Shown: positions 41,929 to 51,220 of the stretch, in pieces
Layout of the letters: every line of letters starts with the position of its first letter
How positions within the stretch are numbered: the stretch's first letter is position 1
DNA from: Cognatundibacterium oligocarboniphilum
GTDB taxonomy: Bacteria > Pseudomonadota > Gammaproteobacteria > Burkholderiales > Burkholderiaceae_D
NCBI RefSeq assembly: GCF_013377855.1
Contig: NZ_JABXYJ010000006.1
Coordinates: 40,377 to 104,376, forward strand
Direction of reading: 5' to 3'
Length of the DNA: 64,000 nucleotides
Position numbers and translations under genes: made by a program
Notes under the pieces: model-generated
The model's database searches: none
What the model was told of the DNA's origin: nothing
Seen by the model: the letters and a program-made list of their open reading frames with translations, nothing else

Positions 41929-42009
41929 TAACCACTCGTGCCTCAACTCCTCTCTAAAAGCCAGTTACATACGCGGCTTTATACAATCTAAACACGATAC
42001 CCATCGATC

Positions 42010-42031
42010 TTTACGATATTTTTACGGCCCC
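42010..42031 (+). promoter_or_regulatory. KdpE-like operator before the TorF porin gene
   Basis: Two TTTAC-type half-sites with a T-run between them (TTTAC-N4-ATTTTTAC) are followed by a C-run. The 22-bp segment agrees at 16 positions with the site at 43039 before the kdp operon. It is 62 bp upstream of the porin start, close to the 70 bp seen at kdp. Confidence 0.5.
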
Positions 42032-42093
42032 ATATTTATGCTTCCGTATCAGATTCTCTCCCTGTCGAATCTGTCAAAACGAAGGATAAATCC

Positions 42094-42861
42094 ATGAAAA
42101 AAACCATCATGTTCGTCTGCCTCGCCACACTGCTGGCTAGCGGTGCCGCCGGTGCAGAAGAAGTGAAACCGGATAATGAAGTCAGCTACAACCTGAGCCT
42201 GGCCAGCGATTACCGTTATCGAGGCATTTCCCAGACCCGCCTCGATCCGGCCCTGCAAGGCGGCGCCGATTACACCAACAACCCGACCGGCCTGTACGCA
42301 GGTATCTGGATGTCCACCATCCAGTGGATCAAGGACACGCCCGGCGCCGGCAGCACGCCGCTGGAAATCGACCTGTATGCCGGCAAACGCGGCCAACTGA
42401 CTGCCGATATCGCGTATGACGTCGGCGTGCTCGGTTACGTTTATGCCGCCAACCATCTCGATCAGGCCGGCATGAAAGACGGCAATACGCTGGAGCTGTA
42501 CGGCCAGTTGAGCAAAGGTCCCGCCTACATCAAATATTCGCACGCCGTCACCACGCTGTTCGGTATCGTTGACAGCCGCAACAGCGGTTATCTGGATGCC
42601 GGCGCCAACATTGAAATCCACGAAGGCCTGACGCTGAACCTGCATGCCGGTTACCAAAAAGTTCAGGGCATCAATTCCAGCGGCGCGACTTACAGCGATT
42701 ACAAAATCGGCGTCAGCAAGGAATTCAAGGATTTCGGCGGCGTAGTCGTCAGCCTTGCAGCGGTCGGCACCAATGCCGATAAAAATTATTACGCAACGCC
42801 CGCCAACGGTAAATTCCTCGGAAAAAACAGCCTGGTACTGATCGCTACCAAAACTTTCTGA
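42094..42861 (+). CDS. TorF-family outer-membrane porin
   Basis: The 255-residue protein has a signal peptide (MKKTIMFVCLATLLASGAAGA). A beta-barrel pattern follows: SYNLSLASDYRYRGISQTRLDPALQGGADY, then GLYAGIWMSTIQWIKD, alternating aromatic/small residues, and a final FLGKNSLVLIATKTF strand ending in Phe. This matches the TorF (Gcw_chp) family, annotated as putative porins. Its operator and position before the kdp locus suggest induction under potassium limitation, perhaps to pass K+ across the outer membrane. That role is inference. Confidence 0.9.
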   Translation: MKKTIMFVCLATLLASGAAGAEEVKPDNEVSYNLSLASDYRYRGISQTRLDPALQGGADYTNNPTGLYAGIWMSTIQWIKDTPGAGSTPLEIDLYAGKRGQLTADIAYDVGVLGYVYAANHLDQAGMKDGNTLELYGQLSKGPAYIKYSHAVTTLFGIVDSRNSGYLDAGANIEIHEGLTLNLHAGYQKVQGINSSGATYSDYKIGVSKEFKDFGGVVVSLAAVGTNADKNYYATPANGKFLGKNSLVLIATKTF

Positions 42862-42890
42862 TCAGAGAACCCGCCATAGTTCCCCTCGCC

Positions 42891-42925
42891 AAAAAGGGCA
42901 GACAGCACGCCTGTCTGCCCTTTTT
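42891..42925 (+). terminator. rho-independent terminator after the porin gene
   Basis: A 15-bp perfect stem (AAAAAGGGCAGACAG / CTGTCTGCCCTTTTT) with a 5-base loop and a T-run follows the porin stop by 30 bp. The porin transcript therefore ends before the kdp promoter. Confidence 0.92.
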
Positions 42926-43038
42926 TATTCGAACCCGCTTTATCGATAGCCACGATTTCCGGATACATCATGAATGTAAATGAAATGCGTTCCGGCTTGC
43001 CGTACCCGGATAAAACGTTGCCCCCCTTCCTGCCGGCG

Positions 43039-43060
43039 TTTACACAATTTTTACACCCCG
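43039..43060 (+). promoter_or_regulatory. KdpE operator / kdp promoter region
   Basis: TTTACACAATTTTTACACC (start of the site) is a direct repeat of TTTACAC-type half-sites. It resembles, from memory, the T-rich KdpE operator of E. coli kdpFABC that ends TTTTTACACCCCG. A -10-like TATACA lies at 43071-43076. The distance to the first ATG is 70 bp. Confidence 0.7.
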
Positions 43061-43130
43061 GCAGACAAGCTATACAACATCTTTATCCGTATTTTTCTAT
43101 CGTAGAAGCTCACCACTGTAAGGAGATCGT

Positions 43131-43223
43131 ATGGACTTTTTATATCTGGGGTGTCTGCTGATTTTCTCAGTATTCACCTTTGCCCTGATTGAGGGTTGCA
43201 GCCGTCTCGGAGGTAAGGAATGA
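43131..43223 (+). CDS. 30-residue single-span membrane protein preceding kdpF
   Basis: The predicted peptide starts MDFLYLGCLLIFSVF and continues TFALIEGCSRLGGKE: one transmembrane helix (about residues 3-21) followed by a polar tail with GCSRL. AAGGAG lies 5 bases before the ATG, a strong ribosome binding site. Its stop overlaps the kdpF ATG (ATGA), so translation of kdpF is coupled to it. It is the first gene after the kdp promoter. The function is not known to me; it could be an extra small Kdp subunit or a translational leader. Confidence 0.65.
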   Translation: MDFLYLGCLLIFSVFTFALIEGCSRLGGKE

Positions 43224-43309
43224 CTCTGTTCCAGATCATCGCTGCCGTCGCGGCGGCCTTATTAATGATTTACCTGATCTATGCCCTGTTGAAACCGGAG
43301 GCATTCTGA
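43220..43309 (+). CDS. kdpF: potassium-transporting ATPase small subunit KdpF
   Basis: The 29-residue single-span peptide (MTLFQIIAAVAAALLMIYLI plus YALLKPEAF) has the KdpF pattern of a hydrophobic helix ending Y-L-x-x-A-L-x-x-P-E-x-F. KdpF stabilises the KdpFABC complex in the inner membrane. Its ATG overlaps the preceding small ORF and an AAGG site; its stop is 1 bp before kdpA. Confidence 0.9.
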   Translation: MTLFQIIAAVAAALLMIYLIYALLKPEAF

Positions 43310-43310
43310 C

Positions 43311-45128
43311 ATGAACCACTCTGCTTTTTTTCAGATCGCTTTTTACATGATTGTGCTGGTAGCGATCGCCATTCCGCTTGGCCTGTATATGTACAAGGTC
43401 ATGAATGGCGAAGCCCATTTCCTGTTACGCGTGTTGAAACCGGTCGAGAACCTGATCTATAAAATCGGGGGCATCAATCCCGATGAAGAAATGAACTGGA
43501 AGCGTTATGCCATTGCGCTGATCGCTTTCAATGTACTTGGCTGCCTCGTTCTGTATGCTCAACAACGTCTGCAAGGCGCGCTGCCGCTGAATCCCCAGGA
43601 TTTTCCTGCAGTTTCGCCCGACTCCTCGCTCAATACCGCCGTCAGCTTTGTAGCCAATACCAACTGGCAGGGCTATACCGGCGAATCCACCATGAGCTAC
43701 CTGACCCAGATGCTGGGCTTAAGCGTGCAGAACTTCGTATCCGCCGCCACCGGTATTACCGTCGTCATCGCACTGATCCGCGGCTTTATCCGTCACAGCG
43801 CCAAAGGCGTGGGTAATTTCTGGGCAGACCTGGTACGCAGCACGCTGTATATCCTGATGCCGTTGGCACTGGTGTTCGCAATCGGCCTGATGAGCCAGGG
43901 CGTGATCCAAAATTTCGACGGCTACAAAACAGCGCAGCTGATGGAAAAACTGGACTACACCGTCCCTAAAAACGACGCCAACGGTGCACCTCTCATGGAT
44001 GCAGCTGGCAAACCCGTGATGGAAGCACAAAGCACCATCACGCAGACGCTGCCTATGGGCCCGGTCGCTTCTCAGGAAGCGATCAAAATGGTCGGCACCA
44101 ACGGCGGCGGCTTCTTCAATGCCAACTCCGCCCATCCTTATGAAAATCCGACACCGTTTTCGAATTTCCTGCAAATGCTGGCAATTTTCGTGATCCCGGC
44201 CGGGCTATGCATCACCTTCGGCAAAATGGTCTCCGACAAACGTCAGGGCTGGGTGCTGTATGCGGTGATGAGCATCCTGTTCGTCAGCTTCGCCTCGCTG
44301 GCCATTTACTCCGAACAGCAGGGTAATCCGCTGTTCAGCAAACTGGCGGTGAATCAGGCTGCAGTCGATACACCGGTGCTGGCTCAGGCCGGCGGCAATA
44401 TGGAAGGCAAGGAAGCCCGTTTCGGTATCGCCGCTTCCGGCCTGTTCGCCACCATCACTACCGCGGCATCCTGCGGCGCAGTGAACTCCATGCACGACTC
44501 CTTTACGCCTATCGGCGGTCTGGTTCCGCTGGTGCTGATGAAACTCGGCGAAGTAGTGTTCGGCGGCGTGGGTGCCGGTTTGTACGGCATGCTGATGTTC
44601 GCTATTCTGGCCGTCTTCATTGCCGGCCTGATGATAGGCCGCACACCGGAATATCTGGGCAAGAAAATCGAAGCCTATGAAATGAAAATGGTGTCCATCA
44701 CCATTCTGGTCGGCCCGCTGCTGGTGCTGGTGGGAACCGCCATGTCGGTCTTGCTGGCCGATGGCAAAGCCGGTATTGCCAATCCGGGTGCGCACGGCTT
44801 CACGGAAATTCTGTATGCCTTCGTATCGGCCACCAATAACAACGGCAGTGCGTTTGCCGGTCTCTCCGCCAATACGCCGTATTACAACCTCATGCTGGCG
44901 ATTGCCATGTGGTTCGGCCGCTTCGGGATGATCATCCCTATCCTGGCGATTGCCGGTTCGCTGGCTGCCAAAAAACGTCTGGCACCAACCTCGGGCACTC
45001 TGCCAACACACGGCCCGCTGTTCGTCTGGCTGCTGCTGGGTACCGTCATCATCGTTGGTGCGCTGACTTATATTCCGGCACTTGCTCTGGGTCCTATCGT
45101 TGAGCATCTGGTTATGATCGCTCAGTAA
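43311..45128 (+). CDS. kdpA: potassium-transporting ATPase subunit A (KdpA)
   Basis: The 605-residue protein has ten transmembrane segments and four selectivity-filter-like repeats of the SKT channel family: [64 protein letters not shown] and [20 protein letters not shown]. KdpA is the K+-selective subunit of the high-affinity KdpFABC pump. It follows kdpF by 1 bp and precedes kdpB by 11 bp. Confidence 0.99.
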
Positions 45129-45139
45129 GAAAGAAGAAA

Positions 45140-47221
45140 ATGAGTCATAAAACCGATCAATCATTATTTACCGTCAAGCTGGTAAAACCCGCGATAGCCG
45201 ATGCTTTCCGCAAACTGCAGCCGCAGATTCAGATGAAAAATCCGGTGATGTTTGTGGTGTATGTCGGCAGTATCCTGACTTCCGCTCTGACGGTTCAGGC
45301 CTTTATGGGCCAGGGCGAGGCGCCTGCCGGATTCATTCTGGCCGTCTCACTGTGGTTATGGTTCACCGTTCTGTTCGCCAACTTCGCCGAAGCGCTGGCG
45401 GAAGGCCGCAGCAAAGCGCAGGCGGAAGCACTGCGCGGCGCCAAACAGGATGTGCGCGCCAAAAAACTGCAGACACCGAACCGTAGCGCCACGCGGATTC
45501 TGGTCAACGGCTCTTCGCTGCGCAAGGGCGATTTCGTGCTGGTGGAAGCCAACGACGTCATCCCTGCCGACGGCGAAGTGGTGGAAGGCGTGGCCTCTGT
45601 CGATGAATCGGCCATTACCGGCGAATCGGCTCCGGTGATCCGTGAATCGGGCGGCGATTTCAGCGCCGTCACCGGCGGCACCCGCGTGCTGTCCGACTGG
45701 ATCATCATGAAGGTGACCGTGAATCCGGGCGAGGCCTTCCTCGACCGCATGATCGCCATGGTGGAGGGCGCCAAACGTCAGAAAACACCAAACGAAATCG
45801 CACTGACGATTTTGCTGGTTGCGTTGACCATCGTCTTCCTGCTCGCGACCGTCACGCTGCTGCCGTTCTCCGTTTTCAGCGTGGAAGCCTCCGGCGCCGG
45901 CCATGCCGTCACCATCACCGTACTGGTGGCATTGCTGGTTTGCCTGATTCCGACCACCATCGGCGGCTTGCTGTCGGCGATCGGTGTGGCAGGCATGAGC
46001 CGCATGATGCAGGCTAACGTCATCGCCACCTCCGGCCGTGCCGTAGAAGCCGCCGGCGACGTCGATGTGCTGCTGCTCGATAAAACCGGCACCATCACGC
46101 TCGGTAATCGTCAGGCATCCGCTTTTTATCCTGCTCCCGGCATCACAGCAGCCCAGCTGGCCGATGCAGCGCAGTTGTCTTCGCTGGCCGATGAAACGCC
46201 GGAAGGCCGCAGTATCGTCATCCTCGCCAAGCAGGAGTTCCAGCTGCGCGAGCGCGATATCGCCGCACTCGGTGCCCAGTTCATTCCTTTCACTGCGCAA
46301 ACCAGAATGAGCGGCGTCGATCTCGAACACAACGGCGTGGTGCGCCAGATCCGCAAGGGTTCGGTCGATGCGATTCGCAAATACTTCACCGCTCAGGGTC
46401 ACAGCTTCCCGCAAGCCGTCACCGATACTGTCGATCAGGTTGCGCGTCAGGGCAGTACACCGCTGGTAGTCATCGACGATCAGCGCGTGATGGGTGTGAT
46501 CGAACTGAAAGACATCGTGAAGGGCGGCATCAAGGAACGTTTTGCCGAATTGCGCAGAATGGGCATCAAAACCGTGATGATCACCGGCGACAACCGGCTG
46601 ACCGCTGCTGCAATTGCCGCAGAAGCCGGCGTGGACGATTTTCTGGCGGAAGCAACGCCGGAAGATAAACTGCGCCTGATCCGTTCGCACCAGGCCGAAG
46701 GCAAGCTGGTAGCGATGACAGGCGACGGTACCAACGATGCGCCGGCACTGGCCCAGGCTGACGTGGCGGTGGCGATGAACAGCGGTACGCAGGCAGCGAA
46801 AGAAGCCGGCAACATGGTCGATCTCGATTCAAATCCGACCAAGCTGATCGAAATCGTGGAAATCGGCAAACAAATGCTGATGACGCGCGGCTCGCTGACC
46901 ACCTTCAGTATCGCCAACGACGTTGCGAAATATTTTGCGATCATTCCGGCTGCATTCGCCACCACGTATCCGCAGCTCGATGCGCTGAATCTGATGCGCC
47001 TGACCAGCCCGTCCAGCGCAATCATGTCGGCAGTGATTTTCAATGCGCTGATCATCGTGTTCCTGATTCCGCTGGCATTGAAAGGCGTTAAATACCGCGC
47101 CCTCGGCGCAGACATCCTGCTGCGCAGGAACCTGCTGATCTACGGCCTCGGCGGTCTGATCATACCGTTCATCGGCATCAAGCTGATCGACATGATCCTT
47201 GCCGTCTGCGGACTGGCATAA
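45140..47221 (+). CDS. kdpB: potassium-transporting ATPase subunit B (KdpB)
   Basis: The 693-residue P-type ATPase has an actuator TGES motif ([12 protein letters not shown]), the phosphorylated aspartate at residue 314 in [14 protein letters not shown], a nucleotide-binding domain, and the hinge [25 protein letters not shown]. KdpB hydrolyses ATP to drive uptake through KdpA. Length and motifs are standard for the family. Confidence 0.99.
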
Positions 47222-47244: not shown

Positions 47245-47814
47245 ATGAAAACCCTGCGACCCTTAATCGCATCCTTTGTTCTGCTGAGTGCGCTGACCGG
47301 CGTGATTTATCCGCTGGCTGTCACCGGCATCGGCAAAGTCGCCTTTCCGAATCAGGCTGGCGGCAGCCTGATCGAGAAAAACGGCAAACTGCTCGGCTCT
47401 GATCTGATCGGCCAGAACTTCAGCGCACCGAAATACTTCTGGAGCCGCCCTTCGGCTGCCGGCACCTTCGCCTACAACGGCCTGGCTTCCGGTGGTTCGA
47501 ACAGCGGACCGACCAATCCGGCACTGAAAGCAGCTGTGGAAGACCGTATCAAGGCTTTGAAAGAAGCCGATCCGGCCAATACCAAGGCGATTCCGGTGGA
47601 TCTGGTAACGGCATCCGGCAGCGGTCTCGATCCGCATATCAGCCCGGCCGCCGCCGATTACCAGCTGGAGCGCGTGGCGCGTGTGCGCGGCATTGCACCG
47701 GAGCGTGTGCGTGCGCTGGTCAGCCAATATACAGAAGACCCGCAATTCGGTATTCTGGGCGAATCCCGTGTGAATGTTTTACGTCTGAACCTTGCATTAG
47801 ATGAGCTGAAATGA
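47245..47814 (+). CDS. kdpC: potassium-transporting ATPase subunit C (KdpC)
   Basis: The 189-residue protein has one N-terminal transmembrane segment (about 8-30, [25 protein letters not shown]). KdpC motifs follow: [65 protein letters not shown]. It stabilises the complex and increases nucleotide affinity of KdpB. A GGGAGAAAG ribosome binding site precedes it; its stop overlaps the kdpD start. Confidence 0.98.
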
Positions 47815-50528
47815 TGAGTGTTTCCCGCCCCGATCCCGACGCCTTACTCGATAAGATTCAACGCGAGGATGCGCGCCAGCAGCGCGGTCACCTGAAAATT
47901 TTCTTCGGTGCCTGCGCCGGGGTGGGAAAGACCTATGCCATGCTCAGCGCTGCCCACGCGCAGCGCGAACAGGGCGTGGACGTGGTGGTCGGCATCGTGG
48001 AAACCCACGGCCGCCAGGACACCATGAAAATGCTGACGGGACTGGAAGTTCTGCCGCAAAAGCAAGTGTCGTATAAAGACAAGACACTGACAGAATTCGA
48101 TCTGGATGCCGCCGTTGAGCGGCATCCGCAATTGATACTGGTCGATGAACTGGCGCATTCCAACGTCACCGGCTCGCGCCATGCCAAGCGCTGGCAGGAC
48201 GTGGAAGAACTGCTGATCGCCGGGATCAACGTGCATACCACCGTTAACGTTCAGCATCTGGAAACGCTGAACGATGTGGTCGGCCAGATCACCGGCATCC
48301 GCGTCTGGGAAACCGTTCCCGACAAGGTGTTCGACATGGCCAACGAAATCACGCTGGTGGATTTGCCTCCCGACGAATTACTGCGTCGCTTAAAGGAAGG
48401 CAAGGTCTATTTCGAACAGCAAGCACAGCGCGCTGCCAAGAATTTTTTCCGCAAAGGGAATCTGATCGCCTTGCGCGAACTGGCTTTGCGTCGTACGGCC
48501 GACCAGGTCGATGTGGAGATGCGCGATTACCGCGCCGATCAATCCATTCATCAGGTCTGGCAGGCCAAGGAAAGACTGCTGGTATGCGTGGGTCCCGATG
48601 CTTCCGCCACCAAGCTGATACGCGGCGCTGCCCGTCTGGCCGCCAGCCTGCGCGCCGACTGGATAGCGGTGTACGTGGAAACGCCGGCGCTGCATCAGCT
48701 CAGTACCGAACGGCGCGAGATGATGCGCAGAGCGATGCAACTGGCCTCCGAACTCGGCGGTGAAACGACCTCACTGGCCGGAGAAAACATTCCCGACCTG
48801 CTGCTGAGTTATGCACGCAGCCGCAATGTCTCCAGGCTGGTCATCGGCCGCTCGCGGCGCCCGACCTGGCTGCGCCTGTTCCGACGCAGTCTGGCCGACG
48901 AACTGGCGAACCGCACCACCGATATGGATGTGGTGATGGTGGGTCACGATGCCGAACAAAGCACTGCCACAGAAAACCGCGGGCCGGCCAGCAGTCATAT
49001 CGCTTTGGAAGAAAACGCTTTCAAGCCTTCTATTGCCTATCTGTGGACTTGTGCTGTCTGCTTCAGCGTAACGCTGGCCAGTGCAGGGCTGTTGCAATTC
49101 TTCGATCTGGCCAACGTGGTTATGCTGTATCTGCTCGGCGTCGTGATCGTTGCGATCCGTTTCGGCAGAGGGCCATCGATACTGGCCTCCTTTCTGAGTG
49201 TGGCCAGTTTCGACTATTTTTTCGTCCCGCCGCGTTTTTCCTTCAGCGTCAGCGACAGCCAGTATCTGTTCACTTTTATGATATTGCTGGCGGTGTCGCT
49301 GATTATCAGTAACCTGATGTCGAATCTGCGTTTTCAGGCCAGAATCGCGCACTATCGCGAGCGGCGCGCCGATGCCCTGTACACCATGAGCAAATCGTTG
49401 TCCGGTGCGCTGATGGTGGAGCAGATTATTGAGATCTCCGTCGATCATCTGGCGCCGGTTTTTCAGGCGCATGTCGCGGTGCTGCTGCCGGACAGTCATG
49501 AAAAAATCCGGCAACCCTTAAGCGGCGATCCGCGTCCCGGCCAGCTGACGGAAATGGATACCAGCGTGGCGCAGTGGGTATACGAACATCATCAGCCCGC
49601 CGGACTCGGCACCAATACGCTGCCCTCGAATGCCGTGCTGTACCTGCCGCTGCGCGCACCGATGCGCACGCGCGGCGTGCTGGCGATTGCGCCCAACGAA
49701 GGCAGTCAGCTTTTTCAGCCCGAGCAGCAGCAATTGCTGGAGACCTTCGCCGCCCAGATCGCACTGGCGCTGGAGCGTGTGCACTATGTCGAGGTGGCGC
49801 AGGATGCCCTGATCAACATGGAAGCGGAGCGCCTGCGCAATTCGCTGCTATCGGCGATTTCTCACGATCTGCGCACACCGCTGACCGCCATCGTCGGCCT
49901 GGCCAGCACGCTGCACGAAAAAAACGATCTCAGCATCGACAAACGCCACGAACTCAGTCTGGCGATACACGACGAAGCGCTGCGCATGAGCGGCCTGGTC
50001 ATGAATCTGCTTGATATGGCCAGACTGCAATCGGGTAAAGTGAATCTGAACCGCCAGTGGCAACCGCTGGAAGAAGTGGTCGGCAGCGCCCTGCGTGCCA
50101 GCGCACACGCCTTGCAGGGGCATCAGTTGATGACCCAGATTCCGTCCGATCTGCCGCTGCTGTCCTTCGATGCGGTATTGCTCGAAAGAGTTTTGTGCAA
50201 TCTGCTGGAAAATGCCGCCAAATATGGTAAAAACAAAATTGATATCAGCGCGGAGCATATTGCCGGTCAGGTGTATCTGCACATCAGCGACGACGGCCCC
50301 GGCATACCGGCCGGTATCAATATTTTTGAAAAATTCACCCGCGGCGACGTCGAGGCCGCCAGCCCCGGTGTGGGTCTCGGCCTGGCGATATGTGAAAACA
50401 TTATGCATGCGCACGGCGGCAATGTGACCGCGGAAAACCTGCCGGAAGGCGGTGCCCGCCTGACCATCAGCCTGCCGGTCGGTGACGCTCCTGCCCTGCC
50501 GGCACTGACTGAGAACGAATTGCAATGA
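47811..50528 (+). CDS. kdpD: sensor histidine kinase KdpD
   Basis: The 905-residue protein has the KdpD N-terminal domain with Walker A-like [15 protein letters not shown] and [27 protein letters not shown] Usp-like domain (about 250-375) and four transmembrane segments (about 400-510, DUF4118) follow, then a GAF domain, the phosphoacceptor H685 in [13 protein letters not shown] and an ATPase domain with [11 protein letters not shown] and GVGLGLAI. It senses potassium limitation and phosphorylates KdpE. Two adjacent ATGs are possible (47811 and 47814). Confidence 0.98.
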
Positions 50529-51220
50529 GCGACAGTAAAATTCACATCGTCCTGATCGAGGATGAAAAACAAATCCGGCGCTTCCTGAACGCTTCGCTGG
50601 AAGCAGAAGGCATGGAAGTCTTTGAAAGCGAAACCGGTAAACAGGGCATGATCAGCGCCGCTACCCGCAAGCCGGACCTGGTGATCGTCGATCTCGGGTT
50701 GCCTGATATGAGCGGGCTGGATGTCATCCGCGATATCCGCAGCTGGAGCGAAGTGCCCATCATCGTTTTGTCGGCCAGAACGCAGGAACAGGAAAAGGTG
50801 GCGGCGCTCGATGCCGGTGCCGATGATTACCTCAGCAAACCTTTCGGCGCGGCCGAACTGCTGGCGCGCATACGCGCTCACTTGCGCCGCCGCCAGCCCG
50901 CCAGTGCGCAAACCGAATCGGCTTTCGAGTTCGGCGATGTCAGCGTGAATTTTTCACTGCGCACTGTGACCAAGAGCGGCAACGCGATTCATCTGAGTCC
51001 CATCGAATACCGCCTGCTGTCGGTTCTCGCCCGCCATGCCGGCAAGGTGATGACGCATCAGCAGCTGCTCAAAGAAGTGTGGGGGCCGAATCATTCGGAA
51101 AGCAGCCACTACCTGCGTATCTACATGGCAAATCTGCGCCAGAAGCTGGAAGATCAACCGGCGCAACCGCAGTATTTTCTGACTGAAACAGGTGTTGGCT
51201 ATCGCTTAATTGCGCACTAA
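50525..51220 (+). CDS. kdpE: response regulator KdpE
   Basis: The 231-residue OmpR-family regulator has phosphoacceptor D56 (VIVDLGLPDMSG), a Ser in the switch position (IVLSAR, a normal variant) and DYLSKPF. Its winged-helix domain has LSPIEYRLLSVLARHAGKVMTHQQLLKEVWG and ETGVGYRLI. It activates the kdp promoter under low K+. It overlaps kdpD by ATGA. It may also bind the site before the porin gene. Confidence 0.98.
   Translation: MSDSKIHIVLIEDEKQIRRFLNASLEAEGMEVFESETGKQGMISAATRKPDLVIVDLGLPDMSGLDVIRDIRSWSEVPIIVLSARTQEQEKVAALDAGADDYLSKPFGAAELLARIRAHLRRRQPASAQTESAFEFGDVSVNFSLRTVTKSGNAIHLSPIEYRLLSVLARHAGKVMTHQQLLKEVWGPNHSESSHYLRIYMANLRQKLEDQPAQPQYFLTETGVGYRLIAH

Follow-up and report, generated by a model that had tools for sequence, protein, structure and literature searches.

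The KdpDE two-component system is mainly known as the switch of one inner-membrane pump, and in E. coli the sensor KdpD phosphorylates the response regulator KdpE when external K+ falls. Activator boxes of the PhoB/OmpR type, which are direct repeats, replace the -35 element. The E. coli kdpFABC site for KdpE consists of the half-sites TTTATA and TTTACA with a 5-bp spacer, and its footprint runs from -72 to -50 (PMC3264566). On the porin side, the gene torF of Shewanella (SO4694) is listed as the outer-membrane porin of the trimethylamine N-oxide (TMAO) reductase system (PMC5955497), and the TorF family name, as we infer, probably comes from it. Pfam lists the TorF family (PF09694) as being of unknown function, and no open-access literature was found for Gcw_chp. 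In the open-access texts searched, as far as they could be accessed and with subscription journals outside the scope, no report of a KdpE-controlled porin was found; the accessible text of PMC7657598 links no porin to KdpE, and a narrow open-access search returned no porin together with amtB and glnK.

The window, that is, the whole stretch of 64,000 nucleotides that was analysed, carries an ABC-transporter pair followed, on the + strand, by torF, a strong terminator, a 30-aa ORF, and kdpF, kdpA, kdpB, kdpC, kdpD and kdpE. The torF gene (42094–42861) encodes a TorF-family putative porin of 255 aa that lies above the curated cut-offs of both TIGR02001 (174 bits, cut-off 47.15) and PF09694 (165.2 bits, cut-off 24). 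With regard to the kdp genes, KdpA (43311–45128; TIGR00680, 788.5 bits, cut-off 387.7) and the response regulator KdpE (50525–51220; NF007820, 329.3 bits, cut-off 325; nearest solved chain KdpE 4kny) exceed NCBIfam cut-offs, and KdpF (43220–43309; PF09604, 33.4 bits, cut-off 21.2) and the sensor kinase KdpD (47811–50528; PF02702, PF13493, HisKA and HATPase_c) are recognized by Pfam, the NCBIfam equivalog NF007793 being missed for KdpD at 1078.7 bits, below its cut-off of 1123. Two further ORFs, 45140–47221 and 47245–47814, are presumably kdpB and kdpC, identified by position and recognition; homologues are similarly placed in relatives, for kdpC where the fetched stretch extends that far.

The 30-aa ORF ahead of kdpF (43131–43223, MDFLYLGCLLIFSVFTFALIEGCSRLGGKE) matches no Pfam family above cut-off, and the start codon at 43131 belongs to it and not to kdpF. 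By eye, a hydrophobic ORF resembling it, often ending near GC.KLG, sits at this position in almost all of the 57 kdp loci compared, and it is possibly an unannotated small Kdp-associated protein. Between torF and kdp, an intrinsic terminator at 42891–42930 combines a 15-pair stem (42891–42925) with a T-run, and the 50 bases from 42886 to 42935 fold at -24.9 kcal/mol in RNAfold, which bears out the earlier claim that a terminator parts the two transcripts. This terminator is not on the + strand list of a simple terminator scan, and a generic sigma-70 scan gives no + strand promoter before torF or kdp.

Before both transcripts lies an operator in which two KdpE-type boxes (TTTAC-N4-TNTTTAC) start at a 32-bp interval and a -10 element follows at a fixed offset. 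In the kdp promoter, the distal box 1 (43039–43054, TTTACACAATTTTTAC; TTTACA-CAATT-TTTACA) is placed by a profile match of 46.6 bits with a genome-wide E of 1e-11, the proximal box 2 (43071–43086, TATACAACATCTTTAT), 32 bp further on, by an unforced listing together with the profile, and the inferred -10 (TATCGT, 43098–43103) by its alignment column. The torF promoter has a degenerate distal box 1 (41978–41993, TTTATACAATCTAAAC; TTTATA-CAATC-TAAACA), which the original prediction had missed and which is the best placement of a two-box position weight matrix (PWM) upstream of torF, with a score of 37.2 against -25.2 for the best of 100 shuffles. Its proximal box 2 (42010–42025, TTTACGATATTTTTAC; TTTACG-ATATT-TTTACG) stands at the -35 position and is matched in register, the profile match at 41992–42043 corresponding to model positions 15–66; its final G is also seen in kdp boxes of several relatives, in their first half-site. 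The -10 assigned by alignment column (TATGCT, 42037–42042) begins 27 bp after box 2 does, the same offset as in kdp. Two AT-rich 6-bp direct half-sites of the TTTATA/TTTACA type, 5 bp apart, are present at 43039, at 42010 and in torF box 1. If the -10 elements are as inferred, box 1 would lie at about -71 to -56 in both promoters and box 2 at about -39 to -24, covering the -35 position, both being counted from inferred starts.

The 32-bp step was first seen in unforced best-box listings before kdpA of relatives and was afterwards imposed in the PWM. With the step imposed, two boxes with at most four mismatches in total occur in 50 of 56 relatives' kdp upstream regions, and these 50 box pairs are followed by a -10 resembling CTATNCTT, its hexamer starting 27 bp after the start of box 2. 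The six upstream regions with more than four mismatches were dropped from training, which favours a clean profile.

The two segments from which the proposal of a common operator had started, 42010–42031 (TTTACGATATTTTTACGGCCCC) and 43039–43060 (TTTACACAATTTTTACACCCCG), are exact in sequence and coordinates and identical at 16 of 22 positions. When the 165 bp before torF were compared with the 204 bp from the terminator to 43131, a best 22-mer match of at least 16 was also reached in 72 of 1000 dinucleotide shuffles; the pairwise similarity is thus not significant alone and was rejected as evidence by itself. The 12-base pattern TTTACNNNNTTTTTAC has exactly three copies in the 3.67-Mb genome, namely the two operator sites and one inside a long ORF (C1:182139), the last of which was rejected as a target for that position. 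With up to two mismatches it occurs at 457 places, against 718 for the reversed control, so a single box carries little specificity, and because the pattern had been taken from the pair itself, relatives were used for testing. Moreover, the earlier pairing was out of register, setting the promoter-proximal box of torF (42010) beside the distal box of kdp (43039). The spacing given to the start codons, 62 bp to 42094 and 70 bp to 43131, is right; the near equality of the two values was rejected as meaningful since different boxes had been paired. The in-register partners are 43039 for 41978 and 43071 for 42010, and 35 of 66 positions are then identical: 12/16 and 11/16 in the boxes, 12/34 outside them. 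That the resemblance reflects chance, base composition or a recent copy of the kdp promoter could be argued from the shuffled 16/22 matches and from how common single boxes with two mismatches are, yet this reading is very improbable, because the genome-wide rank and the class-wise conservation described below oppose chance, the latter already contradicting it, and a recent duplication was rejected on the low agreement outside the boxes. At the level of sequence, what argues for more than chance is the two-box profile and not the 22-bp pair.

The profile used in the genome-wide search was made from the sequences alone of 50 kdp promoters of other genomes, the own genome and every torF promoter being excluded. 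In the ranking of the whole 3.67-Mb genome, the kdp promoter came first (E 1.0e-11) and the torF promoter second (E 0.0072), followed by a third match at C31:379894 (E 0.52), which was taken as chance. Within the window alone, the unfiltered profile gave 46.6 bits for kdp, 20.8 for torF and 6.3 for the third match. The genome-wide E of 0.007 for torF is modest. Across 98 genomes searched with stricter filters, 51 had a match at E 0.05, the best matches being kdp promoters; torF promoters reached this level in 4 of 11 upstream-type genomes (G000, G024, G038, G045), and so did other genomic places in several genomes. The 4/11 result leaves the odds of regulation unmoved, as the class test is the stronger one. 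The median PWM score was 30.4 for upstream-class torF against 68.5 for the training kdp promoters, and from these lower scores the torF operators appear to be weaker than those of kdp. Two further kdp-type operator matches stand before other genes, one (L212, G056:C25:101594-101635) before a 930-aa Mg2+ P-type ATPase-like protein and one (L198, G039:C45:194673-194737) before a beta-lactamase-like protein, both proteins being named by eye.

In the class test, the PWM of two boxes plus the -10 was run over 350 bp before torF in four classes, and scores above 10 were counted. Of the 14 torF genes that precede kdp on its own strand, 12 exceeded 10, or 13 once a longer upstream stretch was read for G081; the remaining one, in G060, combines a fair box 2 with a decayed box 1 and scored -10.6. 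Both torF genes on the opposite strand near kdp also scored above 10. No such score was obtained for torF downstream of kdpC or kdpE on the same strand (0/22) or for other torF genes (0/40), GlnK adjoining 37 of the latter, and the highest score among 7800 shuffles was 10.4. The 40 were those fetched and scored among 82 unlinked torF genes in genus and family, order-level ones not being counted; one of them (L174, G040) in truth follows kdpE, on a contig that is split, and no GlnK was seen at two others, L157 and L168. Held-out kdp stretches exceeded 10 anywhere in the stretch in 9 of 15 cases and did not in 6, at least one of the six (L224) being cut by a contig end. Genomes of one genus are non-independent observations. 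With torF ahead of kdp or on the other strand, its transcription has to start from a separate promoter, and the predicted operator tracks those kdp-linked torF genes that the kdp promoter cannot serve.

These counts also bear on what the original prediction had said of relatives. TorF does stand beside kdp with the same repeat, the operator being found in 15 of 16 genomes (own included) with torF upstream or opposite and in no control class, so the sharing holds, whereas the single 22-bp segment has to give way to a tandem of two boxes. Absence of the repeat before orthologous porins, which was to count against the proposal, is seen where torF lies behind kdp and not in those 15.

A further set of named-genome loci comprised the best 80 of 558, and at least 6 of its 30 upstream cases repeat already-used genomes. 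Among these best 80, 26 of the 30 upstream cases have the operator before torF. It lies no more than 450 bp away in 15 of them and up to 1.2 kb away in the other 11, several of which carry a small-protein or ParA-like gene between site and torF. Of the four misses, three are at contig starts with less than 490 bp upstream, and the fourth (L283) has no kdp site either. Cultured relatives that share the layout of the window are Undibacterium griseum FT31W (L233) and U. curvum CY22W (L234). Still among the best 80, none of the 24 downstream cases has a site within 450 bp of torF, none of the 20 glnK-linked ones has a site, on either strand, across their 311 kb, and at one (L257) of the four loci that have neither kdpA nor GlnK, a site stands roughly 1 kb ahead of torF.

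Several other genes near such operators were observed in these loci, in relatives that include Duganella and Janthinobacterium. A ParA/MipZ-like ATPase lies between operator and torF at L261:8350-8970, where alone the family was tested, and similar ORFs occur in L303, L291, L268 and L301. In other Oxalobacteraceae, kdp-type operators also precede a protein of 100-150 aa (L303:8017-8319; L241 at ~11.4-11.8 kb on the minus strand; L244, L279 and L304) with the conserved C-terminal part MRITVD..ELRHLI..CG...FMRV...DH..KMKVWLCL; the two members tested gave no Pfam family, and the own genome is without a clear homologue (best E 0.65). In addition, an aldolase-like gene divergent from or upstream of kdp has its own kdp-type operator (L303 at ~10.9-12.0 kb; L297, L309, L278 and L296, on the minus strand), the DHDPS family being assigned from the partial sequence of one homologue.

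It has to be considered whether the torF operator serves not KdpE but a different member of the OmpR/PhoB family that recognizes a comparable direct-repeat site. Direct repeats spaced by 11 bp are, as general knowledge, common to that family, and KdpE binding here is a prediction; nevertheless, the profile was trained on kdp promoters alone, the 32-bp step and the -10 offset are identical in the two promoters, and the operator occurs almost only before kdp-linked torF, with the exception of L257, a stretch without kdpA, so that such a regulator seems unlikely. In an alignment to 4kny, the KdpE DNA-contact residues R193, R200 and T215 are kept as R198, R205 and T220 (chain position minus 2). 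It is therefore KdpE that we favour: phosphorylated KdpE very probably activates torF and kdp jointly under K+ limitation, which, judging from the promoter sequences, would place torF in the KdpE regulon.

The physical association of torF with kdp was examined across 147 genomes. Of these, 76 have kdpA, and in 38 of the 76 the distance from kdpA to torF is at most 15 kb, the own genome included in all counts. By hand count from two listings, linkage was found in 28 of 33 kdpA genomes in the genus, in 10 of 24 from other genera of the family, and in none of the 19 that come from the order's remaining families; weak TorF matches are not all listed, so linked cases may be missed. A class-wide draw of 185 genomes, own included, had kdpA in 19 and torF in 93, and linkage in one (G159) of the 18 other kdpA genomes, with torF about 9 kb away on the same contig. 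In linked genomes torF stands before kdp, between kdpC and kdpD, after kdpE, or on the opposite strand, and this variety suggests that an association has been kept rather than one frozen gene order. Among genus-linked genomes the downstream class (18) is larger than the upstream class (10). KdpE control of torF, as predicted, does not appear to be universal: the downstream class has no torF operator, and 12 of 20 kdpE-torF gaps have a terminator-like stem before torF.

In the TorF tree, which omits L118 and L127 (no usable TorF protein), three clades stand out in the genus, one of 36 rows that is glnK-linked and two, of 10 and 17 rows, that are kdp-linked; those from other genera are in part mixed or poorly placed, and L108 sits on a very long branch. 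The own genome has a second torF (L002, G000:C29:314556-315299), 64% identical and directly upstream of glnK and amtB, at which the whole-genome search with the kdp-trained profile gave no site.

No sequence relative of TorF was found in the PDB at E up to 1. Its AlphaFold model is a 12-stranded barrel (mean pLDDT 82.6, pTM 0.78) with a low-confidence N-terminal helix ahead, and the structural neighbours of the model in VIA-align are KdgM (Z 13.9), NanC (13.5) and OmpG (13.3). TorF is thus predicted to be an outer-membrane beta-barrel, although sharing a barrel with these proteins does not show which solute passes. In net charge the kdp-linked TorFs are like the glnK-linked ones, and consequently nothing in the protein yet indicates K+ selectivity. 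On the basis of repeated linkage and the predicted barrel, we regard it as about an even question, leaning slightly to the negative, whether TorF is the outer-membrane K+ entry partner of Kdp. General porins pass K+, which leaves the need for a dedicated TorF porin unproven.

A possible, if somewhat doubtful, alternative is co-regulation for a purpose other than K+, in which KdpE activates torF and TorF meets some other demand of cells under K+ starvation or osmotic stress, for instance by taking up ammonium, amines or compatible solutes, or in envelope remodelling. The same-family paralogue adjoining glnK-amtB, the equal charge of the two classes, and the listing of SO4694 with TMAO reductase (PMC5955497) all lean this way, while the kdp-linked TorFs stay with K+ pump genes in several arrangements and, in the genus, form clades separate from the glnK-linked ones.

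The favoured reading, with KdpE acting on both promoters, implies the following sequence of events. A drop in external K+ would lead KdpD to phosphorylate KdpE, and the phosphorylated regulator would bind two direct-repeat boxes offset by 32 bp, or three helical turns, from start to start. The first of them, at about -71 to -56, would take the position of the E. coli KdpE footprint, and box 2, at about -39 to -24, would replace the -35 element beside a TATNCT-like -10. With one such module before torF (41978–42042) and another before kdpFABCDE (43039–43103), the terminator-separated transcripts would be induced together, the likely purpose being to place an extra small outer-membrane channel, presumed to pass K+, in series with the high-affinity inner-membrane K+ pump. 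More broadly, and tentatively, TorF-family porins could be interchangeable outer-membrane ports for small cations or amines, each tied to a single scavenging system, under KdpE to Kdp for K+ and elsewhere to GlnK-AmtB for ammonium or to Tor for TMAO, so that in K+-starved Oxalobacteraceae KdpDE would retune the outer membrane too and Kdp would be a two-membrane uptake system.

A conserved operator for KdpE in front of an outer-membrane channel would carry the K+ response beyond the inner membrane and point to a specific function of the TorF family. It would also allow a single deletion strain to show whether, when K+ is very scarce, its uptake is limited by the outer membrane. Moreover, the motif of two boxes, a 32-bp step and a fixed -10 may be used to map KdpE regulons in betaproteobacteria.

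Compared with the known systems, the module resembles the E. coli KdpE site in half-site type, in the 11-bp repeat, in the inferred place of box 1 and in the conserved KdpE contact residues, and differs from it in having a second box 32 bp on, over the -35, and in standing also before a porin gene. With PhoB/OmpR-type boxes it shares tandem 11-bp repeats and a proximal box over the -35 region; unlike those contiguous repeats, it has another half-site sequence and two 16-bp boxes with 16 bp between them. In the torF-glnK-amtB locus, too, a TorF-family porin gene precedes the genes of an inner-membrane uptake system, whereas the inner-membrane partner is another and no KdpE operator was found there. 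Finally, Shewanella TorF (SO4694), likened here by name and description and not by sequence, shares the family name and is listed as an outer-membrane porin for one small-solute system (PMC5955497); that system is a different one from Kdp, presumably under another regulator.
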